From assembly GCA_026646335.1 (NCBI GenBank), contig JAPKFY010000017.1:1-32430 (forward strand): a stretch of DNA of 32,430 nucleotides, written 5' to 3'. This DNA is from Aequorivita sp. (GTDB lineage: Bacteria; Bacteroidota; Bacteroidia; Flavobacteriales; Flavobacteriaceae). Shown here in pieces: positions 22,835 to 27,147 of the stretch. The notes beneath the pieces are model-generated. The model had not been told where the DNA came from. It made no database searches and saw only the letters and a program-made list of their open reading frames with translations. Both the position numbers and the translations under genes were made by a program. The first letter of the stretch is position 1. Each line of letters begins with the position of its first letter.

Positions 22835-22867
22835 AACTTTGACAAAGTTTTAAACTTTGTCAAAGTT
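22835..22867. repeat. REP-A palindrome at the start of cutC (33 bp)
   Basis: AACTTTGACAAAGTTT (22835-22850) and AAACTTTGTCAAAGTT (22852-22867) are perfect reverse complements around a single central T. Each arm is itself nearly palindromic. The only plausible cutC start codons, TTG at 22857 and TTG at 22866, lie in the right arm. The same unit recurs before dinB and, split, beside the transposase gene. Confidence 0.85.
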
Positions 22868-23600
22868 GAGTTATATACAAATTGAAATCTGCGCAAACAG
22901 TTTTGAAAGCGCCAAAGCCGCGCAACTTGCCGGCGCAAACCGAATAGAACTTTGTACCGAACTTTCGGTGGGCGGACTTACGCCAAGCCTCGGTTTAATT
23001 GAAAAAGTGGTTTCAGAATTGAATATTCCTGCCCACGTTTTAATTCGTCCGCGAAGTGGAAATTTCACGTATTCTTCATCGGAATTTGATGTGATGTTGC
23101 GCGATATTGCGTTCTGCAAAGAGTTGGGTTGTGAAGGAATTGTAAGCGGGTTTTTAAGTTCGGAAAACAAAATTGATTTTGAAAAAACGAAGCAATTGAT
23201 TGCAGCTTCCGAAGGAATGGAATTCACTTTTCACCGGGCTTTTGATTGGGTGGAAAACCCTTTGGAAGAGCTTCAAAATTTAATTGATTTAAAAGTGAAT
23301 AGATTGCTTTCTTCGGGACAAAAACCGACAGCGATTGAAGGGATCTCACTGTTGAAAGAACTTCAAGACATTGCAAAAGGCGAGATAGAAATTATGCCCG
23401 GAGGCGGAATCAATTTAGAAAATGCCTCGAAATTTAAAGAAGCTGGATTTAAAAGCATTCATCTTTCCGCAACAATCAAAAAGCAAGTACTTCCGAAAAA
23501 ACCGAAAGTTTCTATGCACAGCGATGCCTTTTTTGAAGAGGGAATTGTGGCAACTTCAAGTGCAGAAATTATTCAAAAAATAAAAGCGCTTTTAGCGTAA
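22857..23600 (+). CDS. cutC: CutC family protein (copper homeostasis)
   Basis: This 247-residue cytoplasmic TIM-barrel protein of the CutC family has IEICANSFESAKAAQLAGANRIELC, GGLTPSLGLI, VLIRPRSGNF, FHRAFDW and GGGINLEN, all family hallmarks. The biochemical role is unsettled: copper tolerance was the original proposal and is disputed. No ATG is available; an in-frame TAA lies at 22851-22853 and the candidate starts are TTG at 22857 or 22866, both within the REP-A palindrome. Since E. coli CutC starts close to the LLEICCYS strand, TTG at 22866 (giving a protein starting (M)SYIQIEIC) is equally likely. It lies 25 bp after the GH20 gene and may be read through from it. Its 3' end overlaps the convergent YciI-like gene by 9 bp. 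Confidence 0.85.
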   Translation: MSKLSYIQIEICANSFESAKAAQLAGANRIELCTELSVGGLTPSLGLIEKVVSELNIPAHVLIRPRSGNFTYSSSEFDVMLRDIAFCKELGCEGIVSGFLSSENKIDFEKTKQLIAASEGMEFTFHRAFDWVENPLEELQNLIDLKVNRLLSSGQKPTAIEGISLLKELQDIAKGEIEIMPGGGINLENASKFKEAGFKSIHLSATIKKQVLPKKPKVSMHSDAFFEEGIVATSSAEIIQKIKALLA

Positions 23601-24086
23601 CGGAAAACCCTTTGCCGCCCACCACGGGTGGATTTCAATTTCCAACCTTCCCGATTTCACCATGGGGTCCATATTCGCCAAACTGTCGGCCATTTTTTGG
23701 GTAGGAACATTGTAAATAGTGATGCCGCGGATATCTCCGTCATCACCAAAGGGACCTGAAATGTCCGCATAACCTTCCTCGTACATGCTGCCCAAATGTG
23801 CTAAATGCAGCTTTTGTAGGCTGTCTGCTTCTTCTTTTGTTTGGGAACGGGTGGGTCCTTTTTTTAGAAATGCAATAAAATATTGTTGCATTAAAATGGT
23901 ATCGCCAGATTTTTCATCGACGTAATCAAAAGTTTGAAAACCTTTTTCGGTCAATTCCGCTTTCAGTTGCGCCATTGGCATTGTTTCTTCCTCTGGGCAA
24001 GGTTCGGTTATGTATTCCTTTTCAATTTTAGTTTCACAACTTAAAACGGTTATTCCTAAAATTGCAACAAGTAATTTAGTTTTCAT
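23592..24086 (-). CDS. YciI-like domain lipoprotein
   Basis: This 164-residue lipoprotein has a signal ending in VLSC (Cys17), a charged linker of ~40 residues, and a C-terminal domain resembling the YCII/dimeric alpha-beta barrel fold: QQYFIAFLKKGPTRSQ, then LQKLHLAHLGSMYEEGYADISGPFGDDGDIRGITIY, then DPMVKSGRLEIEIHPWW. The H-x-x-H-L and GPF-D-G pattern is typical of YciI proteins. Catalytic function is not established for this family, and an exported version is less common. The start codon lies inside the 3' end of the upstream CYTH gene (11-bp overlap), indicating coupled translation. It converges with cutC. Confidence 0.8.
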   Translation of the reverse strand: MKTKLLVAILGITVLSCETKIEKEYITEPCPEEETMPMAQLKAELTEKGFQTFDYVDEKSGDTILMQQYFIAFLKKGPTRSQTKEEADSLQKLHLAHLGSMYEEGYADISGPFGDDGDIRGITIYNVPTQKMADSLANMDPMVKSGRLEIEIHPWWAAKGFPLR

Positions 24087-24555
24087 TTGTCCAAGTTTTA
24101 AAAGGGTTTTTACTCAAATTTGAGTTGTAATATTTAACATCGCCCGTAACTTCTTTTCCCAGCCAATCGGGTTTTGAAAAGGGTTCATTTTCTGAACCGA
24201 GCTCTATTTCGGCAATAATTAATCCTTTGTTTTCACCCATAAAATCATCTACTTCAAAAGTATGGTCACCGCTTGAAATTTCATAACGGGTTTTTTCAAT
24301 AATGCCCGGTTCACAAAGGTGAAGCAATTCTTCGGCTTCTGCTAGCGAGATTTGTTTTTCCCACTCAAAACGCGAAAGACCCGATTTGTTGGATTTGCCT
24401 TTAATAGTAATAAAACCATCACTTCCCTGCACGCGAACACGCACCGTTCGCTCGGGATGGGTGTTCAAAAAACCCTGTACAATGTGTGTGCGTTTGTGGG
24501 CTTCATTTTTAAAAGCTTCGGAAGTGACCAAGAATTTGCGTTCTATTTCATGCAT
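24076..24555 (-). CDS. CYTH domain protein (triphosphate tunnel metalloenzyme)
   Basis: This 159-residue cytoplasmic protein begins with HEIERKFLV, the ExExK metal/triphosphate signature (Glu3, Glu5, Lys7) of the CYTH superfamily. Further tunnel strands carry the expected charged residues: RTVRVRVQGSDGFITIKGK, RFEWEKQIS, EKTRYEI and LIIAEIELGSE. Bacterial short CYTH proteins of this type are usually inorganic triphosphatases or of unknown phosphohydrolase activity; class IV adenylate cyclase is possible but less likely. It is co-directional and overlapping with the YciI-like gene. The gap to the next gene upstream (24556-24634) is filled by a REP-B repeat pair. Confidence 0.88.
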   Translation of the reverse strand: MHEIERKFLVTSEAFKNEAHKRTHIVQGFLNTHPERTVRVRVQGSDGFITIKGKSNKSGLSRFEWEKQISLAEAEELLHLCEPGIIEKTRYEISSGDHTFEVDDFMGENKGLIIAEIELGSENEPFSKPDWLGKEVTGDVKYYNSNLSKNPFKTWTNEN

Positions 24556-24574
24556 GTTTATTTCTATATTACGT

Positions 24575-24630
24575 TGTCAGGTTGAGCGCAGTCGAAACCT
24601 CTTAGTTGTCCTCGACTCGCTCGAACAGAC
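24575..24630. repeat. REP-B inverted pair between the CYTH and NAD(P)-binding genes
   Basis: The left unit (24575-24600, core GGTTGAGCGCAGTCGAAACC) and a diverged inverted unit (24608-24630, core CTCGACTCGCTCGAACAGAC) face each other across about 7 bases. The left unit matches 25 of 26 bases with a copy inside the adjacent gene at 24856-24881. Core sequences of this kind are, from memory, abundant dispersed repeats in flavobacteria. Confidence 0.75.
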
Positions 24631-24634
24631 CTTT

Positions 24635-25303
24635 TCAACCTACAATTTCCCTAATTTTTTCTGAAGTGATAATTTTTTCAGAATAACCTTCTTTCGCCAA
24701 TACCAGCATTGCTTCTGCAATAGTTTCGGCTTTAATCATTTTGTACTTCTTTGGAATTAAAAACCCAAAAATTTTCATAAAAATGGAAGCTACATTTTCA
24801 CCCAAACGCGATTCATTTCGCTCGCCAACAATTAATGAAGGTTGAAGAATATAAATGTCAGGTTGAACGCAGTCGAAACCTTGCTTCAACACATCCCGTT
24901 CCATTTCGCCTTTCGTTTTGTTGTAAAAAACACGGCTATTTTCATCTGCACCCATTGCTGAAATTACGATAACTGTTTCAATCCCATTCTGTTTTGCAAG
25001 TTTTGCAGCGGCAACAGGAATGCCGTAATCTATTTTTTTATAAGTTTCTTTGTTGGGAGTTTTGGCTTTTGTTGTACCGATACAGCAAAAAACTACATCG
25101 GCCTTAAATGTTTCAGAATGTTTTTCCAATTGAAACATATCAATTAAATGCTCTTCAATTTTCGGGGAATTGTTTTCTGCGGAACTGCGGGAGAATAACT
25201 TTATTTTTTCAAAGGAAGAATCTTTCAAAAGCTTTTCTAATAAAATACTTCCCGTTAATCCCGTGGCGCCTAAAATGATTGCTGTTTTTTTCAACTTTGA
25301 CAA
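24635..25303 (-). CDS. NAD(P)-binding oxidoreductase-like protein (atypical SDR / NmrA-like)
   Basis: This 222-residue Rossmann-fold protein has the dinucleotide-binding motif GATGLTGS (residues 12-19), followed by VVFCCIGTTKAKTPNKETYKKIDYGIPVAAAKLAKQ, VIVISAMGAD and YNKTKGEME (an extended-SDR-like YxxxK). It resembles the TIP30/HTATIP2-like atypical SDR group; the substrate is unknown. Residues 141-150 (QGFDCVQPDI) are encoded by a copy of the REP-B repeat, apparently inserted in frame just before YILQPSLIVGER. The gene has no nearby ATG: an in-frame TAA lies five codons upstream, and the candidate TTG starts (25301-25303 and 25292-25294) lie within or at the edge of the REP-A arm, giving (M)SKLKKTAII or (M)KKTAII. 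It diverges from the RAYT gene. Confidence 0.83.
   Translation of the reverse strand: MSKLKKTAIILGATGLTGSILLEKLLKDSSFEKIKLFSRSSAENNSPKIEEHLIDMFQLEKHSETFKADVVFCCIGTTKAKTPNKETYKKIDYGIPVAAAKLAKQNGIETVIVISAMGADENSRVFYNKTKGEMERDVLKQGFDCVQPDIYILQPSLIVGERNESRLGENVASIFMKIFGFLIPKKYKMIKAETIAEAMLVLAKEGYSEKIITSEKIREIVG
24856..24881. repeat. REP-B copy embedded in frame in the NAD(P)-binding gene
   Basis: This 26-bp unit differs from the intergenic copy at 24575-24600 by one base (GAACGC versus GAGCGC). On the minus strand it is read through as QGFDCVQPDI without a stop. The close identity between a coding and a non-coding copy indicates recent dispersal rather than protein-level conservation. Confidence 0.8.
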
Positions 25304-25385
25304 AGTTTTTGAAATTTAATTTTATACTATAATTTGAATTATAATGCTGACTACGATTTAAAAATAGATAAACTTTGTCAAAGCT
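25293..25385. repeat. Split REP-A element upstream of the RAYT gene
   Basis: The arms AACTTTGACAAAGTTT (25293-25308) and AAACTTTGTCAAAGCT (25370-25385) are inverted, with one mismatch to the canonical arm, and separated by 61 AT-rich bases instead of one. The interior holds a smaller palindrome TATAATT-TG-AATTATA (25328-25343). The left arm supplies the TTG start of the minus-strand NAD(P)-binding gene; the right arm is 33 bp before the RAYT ATG. Confidence 0.8.
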
Positions 25386-25418
25386 AGCACTCAAATTTAT
25401 TATATTAAGTTTATAGAA

Positions 25419-26003
25419 ATGCAAAGTTTTTACACCTTGGAAACTGACAGGCACTATCATATCTATAACCGCGCAAATGGAACTGAAAAGATTTTTGTGT
25501 CCACTGAAAATTTTGACTTCTTTCTTCGTAAATATAGGAAGTTTATAGTTCCTGTTGTTGATACATTTTGCTATTGCTTAATGCCGAATCACTTTCATTT
25601 TTTAATAAAGGTCAAGTCTGAAAAACAATTAATGGAACTTGAATTTTACCAAGATTTTAAGAATAAAAGTCTTTTCGTGAGTAAACAATTTTCAAACTTG
25701 TTTAGCTCCTATACGCAGGCTTTCAATAAACAACAGGGAAGAAGGGGCAATCTTTTTATGCGGCCTTTCAAGCGAAAGGAGATACAGGATGAAATTTATT
25801 TTCGAAAGCTTGTTCAATATATTCATCTTAACCCAGTTGAAGCCGGGCTCTGCAATTATCCGACAGAATGGGTGCATTCTTCATACAATGCTTTGATTTC
25901 CCAAAAACCAACTTTGCTAAACAGGTTGGAAGTTTTGAGATATTTTGATACAGTAAAATTTTATTTATGTTCACTCATATCCACCCCAGATTACAGGTAT
26001 TGA
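25419..26003 (+). CDS. REP-associated tyrosine transposase (RAYT, Y1/IS200-like)
   Basis: This 194-residue single-strand DNA transposase of the Y1 HUH superfamily has RHYHIYNRANGTEKIF at the start and the metal-binding HUH motif MPNHFHFLIK (His58, His60). The probable nucleophile is Tyr98 in SSYTQAFNKQQGRRGNLF, followed by PFKRKEI and YIHLNPVEAGL and the terminal SSYNAL block. These features match RAYTs, which are single-copy domesticated relatives of IS200/IS605 transposases and are linked to the spread of REP palindromes. No tnpB and no IS ends are seen. Instead it is bracketed by REP-A palindromes: one arm 33 bp before the start and a full 33-bp copy 15 bp after the stop. This is the expected genomic signature of a RAYT with its cognate repeats. 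Length and motifs look intact. Confidence 0.9.
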   Translation: MQSFYTLETDRHYHIYNRANGTEKIFVSTENFDFFLRKYRKFIVPVVDTFCYCLMPNHFHFLIKVKSEKQLMELEFYQDFKNKSLFVSKQFSNLFSSYTQAFNKQQGRRGNLFMRPFKRKEIQDEIYFRKLVQYIHLNPVEAGLCNYPTEWVHSSYNALISQKPTLLNRLEVLRYFDTVKFYLCSLISTPDYRY

Positions 26004-26018
26004 AACATTCTAAATCTT

Positions 26019-26051
26019 AACTTTGACAAAGTTTAAAACTTTGTCAAAGTT
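26019..26051. repeat. REP-A palindrome at the start of dinB (33 bp)
   Basis: AACTTTGACAAAGTTT (26019-26034) and AAACTTTGTCAAAGTT (26036-26051) are perfect reverse complements around a central A. It is identical in both arms to the copy before cutC and differs only at the central base. It begins 15 bp after the RAYT stop and is read as the first codons of dinB. Confidence 0.87.
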
Positions 26052-27147
26052 GGAAGAAAATATCCGCAAAATAATCCACGTAGATATGGATGCTTTTTAT
26101 GCGTCCGTGGAGCAGTTGGACAATCCCGAACTGCGCGGAAAAGCCGTTGCCGTTGGCGGTAGCTCGGCTCGTGGCGTGGTGAGTGCGGCTAGTTACGAAG
26201 CCCGTAAGTTTGGCGTTCGCAGTGCGATGAGTGGTGCAATGGCACGCAAGCTTTGCCCTGAACTTATTTTTGTGAGAACTAATTTTGATCGCTATAAAGA
26301 AGTTTCAAAACAGATTCGGAAAATATTTTTTGAATATACCGATTTGGTGGAGCCGCTTTCTTTAGACGAAGCCTATCTGGACGTTACCGAAAACAAAAAA
26401 GGCAATCCCAGTGCGACGATGATTGCGACCGAGATTCGGAAAAAGATAAAGGAAAAGACAGGGCTGAACGCTTCCGCAGGAATTTCTGTAAATAAATTTG
26501 TGGCGAAAATAGCAAGCGACATCAACAAGCCCAACGGGCAAAAAACCATTGGCCCCGAGGAGGTGGTTCCTTTTTTGGAAACGTTGGACGTGAAGAAGTT
26601 TTACGGTGTCGGGAAGGTTACCAAAGAGAAAATGTACCGTTTGGGTATTTTTACGGGAAAGGATTTAAAAAGTAAATCAATTGAATTTTTAGAGGAGAAC
26701 TTCGGAAAGAGCGGTGGTTTTTATTACAACGTGGTCCGTGGAATTCACAACAGCAAAGTGAAACCTTCGCGAACGCAGAAATCCTTGGCTGCCGAACATA
26801 CATTTTCAGAAAATATTTCTTCAGAAATTTTTATGATGGAAAGGCTTGAAGAAATTGCGGGTGAAGTTGAAAGACGCCTGCACAAAAGCAAACTTGCAGG
26901 AAAAACGGTTACATTGAAAATTAAATATCGCGATTTCACATTGCAAACGCGCAGCAAAACGCTTCCGCTTTTTATCGCTTCCAAAGAATTGATTTTGGAT
27001 GTAGTTAAAGAATTGTTATTTCAGGAAAAAATGAAGGAATCGGTACGGTTGTTGGGAATTTCAATCTCACACCTAAACAACGAAACCCCTAAGAAAAAGG
27101 AGGTTTTAAAAGAATCAATTGATGTGCAATTGAAGCTTGAATTTTAA
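26023..27147 (+). CDS. dinB: DNA polymerase IV (Y-family translesion polymerase)
   Basis: This Y-family polymerase of about 365-374 residues has RKIIHVDMDAFYASVEQ (metal ligand Asp21), VRSAMSGAMARKLCPELIFV, PLSLDEAYLDVT (Asp115-Glu116), the NKFVAKIASDINKPNGQ thumb block and a little-finger domain ending before a short Lys-rich tail. It copies past DNA lesions and is error-prone. The start is uncertain: there is no ATG before residue 22, and three in-frame TTG codons (26023, 26041, 26050) all lie in or at the edge of the REP-A palindrome. Because family members usually begin one or two residues before RKIIHxDMD, TTG at 26050 (giving (M)EENIRKII) seems biologically most likely. It is co-directional with the RAYT gene 19 bp upstream. 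Confidence 0.92.
   Translation: MTKFKTLSKLEENIRKIIHVDMDAFYASVEQLDNPELRGKAVAVGGSSARGVVSAASYEARKFGVRSAMSGAMARKLCPELIFVRTNFDRYKEVSKQIRKIFFEYTDLVEPLSLDEAYLDVTENKKGNPSATMIATEIRKKIKEKTGLNASAGISVNKFVAKIASDINKPNGQKTIGPEEVVPFLETLDVKKFYGVGKVTKEKMYRLGIFTGKDLKSKSIEFLEENFGKSGGFYYNVVRGIHNSKVKPSRTQKSLAAEHTFSENISSEIFMMERLEEIAGEVERRLHKSKLAGKTVTLKIKYRDFTLQTRSKTLPLFIASKELILDVVKELLFQEKMKESVRLLGISISHLNNETPKKKEVLKESIDVQLKLEF

Follow-up and report, generated by a model that had tools for sequence, protein, structure and literature searches.

How do three unrelated genes come to begin inside the same short palindrome? We addressed this question in a 32,430-nt stretch of Aequorivita sp. (contig JAPKFY010000017.1 of assembly GCA_026646335.1), hereafter the window, which is one of the 163 contigs of a 3.05 Mb genome. 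In the window, cutC, a gene for an NAD(P)-binding protein of the short-chain dehydrogenase/reductase type (SDR), and dinB all start at the edge of a palindrome with the consensus AACTTTG(A/T)CAAAGTT, present as inverted pairs. We read these pairs as repetitive extragenic palindromic (REP) doublets, and a gene for a REP-associated tyrosine transposase (RAYT) lies between the SDR gene and dinB. The palindrome arms appear, from sequence comparison, to supply the start codons of the three genes. The features are the following.

22835..22867, plus strand: REP doublet on the cutC side, with palindromes at 22835-22849 and 22853-22867 (15-3-15, 18 nt apart)
22866-22868, plus strand: TTG start of cutC, with TT from the arm and G from the flank; another in-frame TTG is at 22857
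22866..23600, plus strand: cutC (Pfam PF03932, E 3.4e-67)
24635..25294, minus strand: NAD(P)-binding (SDR-type) gene (Pfam PF13460, E 2.6e-9)
25294-25292, minus strand: TTG start of the SDR gene, aligned with the ATG of 21 of 26 orthologues
25293-25307 and 25371-25385, minus strand: long REP doublet on the SDR side, its palindromes lying at the SDR start and on the RAYT side, respectively, with 78 nt spacing
25419..26003, plus strand: RAYT (TnpA-REP) gene with HuH (NHFH) and YIHLNP motifs; a possible alternative TTG start is at 25437
26019..26051, plus strand: REP doublet on the dinB side, with palindromes at 26019-26033 and 26037-26051 (15-3-15, 18 nt apart)
26050-26052, plus strand: TTG start of dinB; further in-frame TTGs are at 26023 and 26041
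26050..27147, plus strand: dinB, DNA polymerase IV (PF00817, E 1.2e-54; NF002677, E 8.3e-135)

The three genes open at the junction CTTTGTCAAAG-TTG and have no usable ATG, which confirms the original prediction that they begin with the same arm and find their TTG within it. There are two in-frame arm TTGs each in cutC and the SDR gene (TTG-TCA-AAG-TTG) and three in dinB, and the starts listed above are choices supported by alignment. In cutC and the SDR gene, the junction TTG is followed by no ATG or GTG before the conserved part of the protein begins, and the similarity of the SDR protein starts directly after AAAGTTG. In dinB, there is a later in-frame ATG at 26086; starting there would lose the first conserved Asp, which we take to have a catalytic role. 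The ratio of nonsynonymous to synonymous substitution rates (dN/dS) of the three genes was 0.02-0.21 in all 15 pairwise comparisons, some of which matched a TTG genome with an ATG genome and several of which had dS above 1. By this measure, all three genes are under purifying selection, so the junction TTGs probably serve as their working starts.

Orthologues from 28 genomes of the genus show what these sites look like when empty. The RAYT unit lies between the SDR gene and dinB in five genomes (G000, G005, G008, G013, and G023), the RAYT of G005 being disrupted by in-frame stops. Of 26 SDR orthologues, 21 have ATG at the aligned codon and five start with an arm TTG, the latter belonging to exactly the five genomes with the RAYT unit. 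For dinB, we found ATG in 23 of 26 genomes and TTG in three (G000, G013, and G023). G005 keeps the dinB ATG despite the RAYT unit, and in G008 the doublet lies 9 nt upstream of an intact dinB ATG, a possible intermediate. G014 and G018, with only distant SDR hits and no full dinB orthologue, were left out of both counts. In cutC, the start is ATG in 11 of 14 genomes and TTG in three (G000, G009, and G025); the partial cutC of G017 was left out, and the cutC of G024, interrupted by stops, was counted as ATG from its readable start. In several of the ATG genomes, the cutC ATG shares bases with the stop of the preceding gene. The three TTG genomes still have that ATG, with a TAA closing its frame after one codon and the element lying downstream of it. 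G005 has an element upstream of cutC and keeps the ATG.

Thus, relatives lacking the element have ATG, in agreement with the idea that the arm junctions supply the starts. The comparison with orthologues had been proposed as a way to find an ATG at the junction, and its outcome differs between genes: ATG has been replaced by TTG at the aligned codon of the SDR gene, but for cutC the ATG of relatives persists upstream of the junction. Three gene starts are indeed affected; however, those of SDR and dinB flank one RAYT unit, and therefore at most two separate insertions are needed. Three independent insertions were rejected for the same reason.

A 13-mer of the palindrome gives 16 matches in the window with up to two mismatches, both strands counted, against 2.41 expected, and none of 100 shuffles reached 16. 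The exact 15-mer AACTTTGWCAAAGTT occurs at seven places in the genome, five of them in the window (the reversed-pattern control gave none); the palindrome at 25371-25385 has one mismatch to the family. When two mismatches were allowed in the same genome, the control (58) exceeded the pattern (32), and therefore only near-exact copies carry signal. Exact copies were found in 15 of the 28 genus genomes, at 0-11 per genome with decayed copies uncounted. In a scan of 199 genomes of the family, the exact palindrome occurred in three, two of the same genus as the window and one of another genus. Among 53 element copies, 45 are paired, with a spacing of 18-19 or 77-79 nt and one triple, and eight are single.

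The ORF at 25419-26003 is identified by its motifs as a RAYT, an HuH-Y REP-associated tyrosine transposase. It carries N57-H58-F59-H60 and Y134-I-H-L-N-P, that is, an HuH and a single-tyrosine motif; in 20 aligned sequences, N57, H60, Y134, N138, and P139 are invariant and H58 and H136 are at least 90% conserved. The relatives are at 40-88% identity. The last ~15 residues of the RAYT of the window are unlike theirs. NCBIfam NF047646 matches it at E 4.7e-17, short of the bit-score cut-off of that model. A profile of the family had the TnpArep structure 4er8 as its sole match in the PDB at E<=0.01, and Pfam family PF01797 (Y1_Tnp) matches 10 of 11 family members at the same threshold. Inverted palindrome pairs flank the gene, and more copies are found elsewhere in the genome. 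Many related Bacteroidetes RAYTs have 15-3-15 palindrome doublets of varying sequence adjoining the gene or within it, for example between HuH and Y in L161-L167, L173, L176, and L179. The RAYT of the window has no internal palindrome, and a variable insert occupies the stretch between HuH and Y. Because related RAYTs carry such doublets, and because of the match to subclass 2.4 discussed below, the palindromes are read as the REPs of this transposase.

Next, we asked whether gene starts are preferred. The 53 copies, from the genus and one further genus, were grouped by hand by their flanking genes into 29 distinct sites, with neighbours taken as ORFs of at least 80 aa rather than from annotation. 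The tandem duplicate in G023 did not add to the count for site S1. For sites S22 and S23, in the genome of the window only, one mismatch was allowed; elsewhere, decayed copies did not enter the count. An arm-built start codon was found at three of the 29 sites, those of SDR, dinB, and cutC, all in the window cluster. A start is no more than 20 nt away at four sites, compared with 13 sites at which, in at least one genome, a stop is no more than 15 nt away. The prediction that the element is targeted to, or enriched at, translation starts is therefore not borne out.

Stop codons are supplied by the arm at three of the 29 sites. A T|AA stop closes an acyl-CoA-synthetase-like gene and an aminotransferase-like gene, and a TGA within the arm is the stop of a coaD-like gene (all three names come from reading the sequence). 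At both T|AA sites, most element-free genomes have their own stop nearby, which makes it probable that the arm replaced a native stop already lost.

The bases at the junctions suggest why TTG recurs. Arms end in AAC...GTT. Taking one genome per site, the outward base is G at 26 of 58 ends, A at 19, T at seven, and C at six, so that a purine follows 45 of them. For comparison, the window composition is 0.207 G and 31% A. With the three start junctions removed, G still follows at 23 of 55 ends. TTG and TTA, with 18 of the 58 apiece, are the commonest arm ends. No recognised gene starts at 15 of the TTG ends, a few of which open unverified ORFs of 73-142 aa. In addition, we scanned 95 distinct doublets (188 ends), other REP families included, under a definition that excludes the SDR doublet by its longer spacing. 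Ten rows had an arm-built start with an ORF of at least 90 aa: three for cutC, two for dinB, three inside RAYT ORFs, and two for doubtful ORFs.

Taken together, we consider it likely that a REP-RAYT unit (REPtron) and a separate doublet of the same family account for the locus, and that the TTG starts result from survivor bias and junction composition. The RAYT gene with its flanking 15-nt palindromes would have inserted in the intergenic region between the divergent SDR gene and dinB, and the second doublet just upstream of cutC, the palindromes presumably having been moved by the RAYT. With ...CAAAGTT at the arm ends and usually a purine, G above all, as the following base, TTG would easily form at the junction. 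Insertion would have destroyed or displaced the native ATG, and only insertions leaving an in-frame junction TTG would have kept the genes alive. This TTG, presumably the codon really used in translation, would since have been kept by selection, and by the same logic arms would have come to give stop codons (T|AA and TGA) at some gene ends. Survivor bias, itself presumed here, explains the site pattern without targeting.

Several observations weigh against this explanation. The RAYT of the window scores below the cut-off both for NCBIfam NF047646 (E 4.7e-17, 62.2 bits against 80) and for PF01797 (E 0.0067, 17 bits against 23), and no Pfam family matches it at E 0.001. The 5' tetranucleotide of classical REPs, GTAG (or GT[AG]G / CGTC), is absent from the arms. 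The same AACTTTGACAAAGTT palindrome extends beyond this RAYT lineage, being present at L169 and L182, both distant loci of Bacteroidetes. Selection acting on the junctions once inserted may explain some of the excess of G. Finally, the TTG alleles fail to form a single group on the SDR tree and on the dinB tree, with G000 and G013 pairing weakly (0.53) on the former; these data do not distinguish the spread of a single insertion by recombination from repeated insertion or from loss.

The likeliest of the alternatives is that the arms have been kept as regulatory modules, cutC, SDR, and dinB being tuned by a hairpin that covers the start codon or by an outer-arm -7 box. A Bacteroidetes-type -7 box has the motif TAnnTTTG, which the outer arm T|AACTTTG fits. 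In predicted RNA folds, computed with no shuffle control, the TTG of cutC falls within a stem of 22 bp (-28.0 kcal/mol, 101 nt folded), that of dinB sits at a stem base (-23.8, 101 nt), and the SDR junction pairs with the far palindrome (-24.6, 137 nt); such hairpins may affect expression. The junction TTGs have A at -3; in Flavobacterium johnsoniae, an A at this position promotes initiation, which is also tuned by mRNA structure (PMC6847099). Counted by eye, 19 of 26 genomes have a box TAAATTT[GA] shortly before the dinB ATG and three more have variants of it; the four genomes in which the element adjoins dinB lack it. TTG has also been retained across several species, but this is equally expected of any needed start codon, and on reading the sequence we saw no well-spaced upstream box for dinB. 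We regard regulatory retention as unlikely. A more far-reaching idea is that of an exapted REP arm serving as a portable module for initiation, one that carries a start codon (A at -3), a hairpin, and possibly a promoter box. This seems to us improbable; if true, selection would have kept the module at three linked genes, including that of the error-prone polymerase DinB, as a means of tuning expression.

It is similarly improbable that the starts were misread and that translation begins at another codon (ATA, ATT, or an earlier TTG), the arm being a leader. Each arm does hold several in-frame TTGs, but the SDR similarity begins immediately past AAAGTTG, and the stretch from the junction to the conserved start of CutC or SDR is free of ATG and GTG. 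Last, an element targeting start codons or AT|G sequences and swapping ATG for TTG, as the exact ATG-to-TTG change at the aligned SDR codon and three starts within 3.2 kb might suggest, is very improbable, as arm-built starts occur at so few sites and in one cluster, the cutC insertion lies downstream of the ATG of relatives, G008 retains its dinB ATG beside the same element, and most TTG junctions start no recognised gene.

Some further observations concern the same genes and repeats. In three relatives (L009, L010, and L011), the RAYT has no usable N-terminal ATG and may start at TTG (compare 25419-25437 in the window). In G023 (L048, 2168-2564), a tandem second long REP doublet is accompanied by the first ~77 SDR codons, and the truncated copy ends at a TAA supplied by the next arm. 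The SDR-dinB gap contains other inverted repeats in four of 20 element-free relatives under an 8-bp-arm criterion and in more by eye; at least three other repeat types were seen by eye in this gap. Also by eye, a 13-15-nt match, CTATTTTTAATGG, links the interior of the long doublet of G013 and G023 to the native intergenic region of relatives. In L169 (1087-2983 and 3928-4665), AACTTTGACAAAGTT palindromes surround the RAYT and lie within neighbouring long ORFs; in L182, the palindrome is at 2285-2317. A second repeat, GGTTGA(G/A)CGCAGTCGAAACC, with five genome copies at up to one mismatch, occurs at 24575-24600 and 24856-24881. The latter copy is in frame inside the SDR gene, and the protein is four residues longer there than in five relatives compared.

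Returning to the REP-RAYT explanation, the empty sites show that a junction of a transposase-linked palindrome can replace a start codon, which complements the published REP stop codons. For annotation, start calls at repeat junctions may need TTG. The locus also offers a natural experiment on how an ATG-to-TTG change is tolerated in dinB, cutC, and the SDR gene.

The original prediction that no equivalent has been described was too strong, as this is a REP/REPIN system with RAYT, and REP-derived stop codons and N-terminal REPs have been published (PMC3733652). Start-codon supply by REPs was not found in the open-licence literature, in a limited search of titles and abstracts that is weak evidence of absence. 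As far as this limited search shows, the locus would represent ordinary REP-RAYT biology with start-codon supply as its previously undescribed consequence. The comparisons below rest on the available parts of the cited papers. Rickettsia palindromic elements likewise keep the reading frame of host genes and can be N-terminal, but they are inserted within proteins as coding sequence, and a start codon at the junction is not described in those parts (PMC3733652, PMC10969869). The GTAG/CGTC REPs lie mostly near gene 3' ends, their termini often provide stops, and some are found at ORF N-termini or inside ORFs. Unlike here, where the stops are TAA or TGA, theirs is TAG; the N-terminal REPs are mostly ascribed to mispredicted starts, and start-codon supply is not described in the part of that report available (PMC3733652). 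Copy number also differs, as REP/REPIN sequences usually exceed 100 per genome (PMC2817692), while here there are 0-11 exact 15-mers, decayed copies uncounted. The closest match is REP/REPIN with RAYT of subclass 2.4 of Quentin et al. 2018, which is RAYT group 4 (PMC6006769). The element of the window differs from it in lacking the GT[AG]G foot, in having few copies per genome, in arms that form gene starts, and in a RAYT with no internal palindrome, in-frame REPs within RAYT genes having been reported there. It shares with subclass 2.4 a Bacteroidetes HuH-Y transposase of about 190 aa whose gene is flanked by palindromes.

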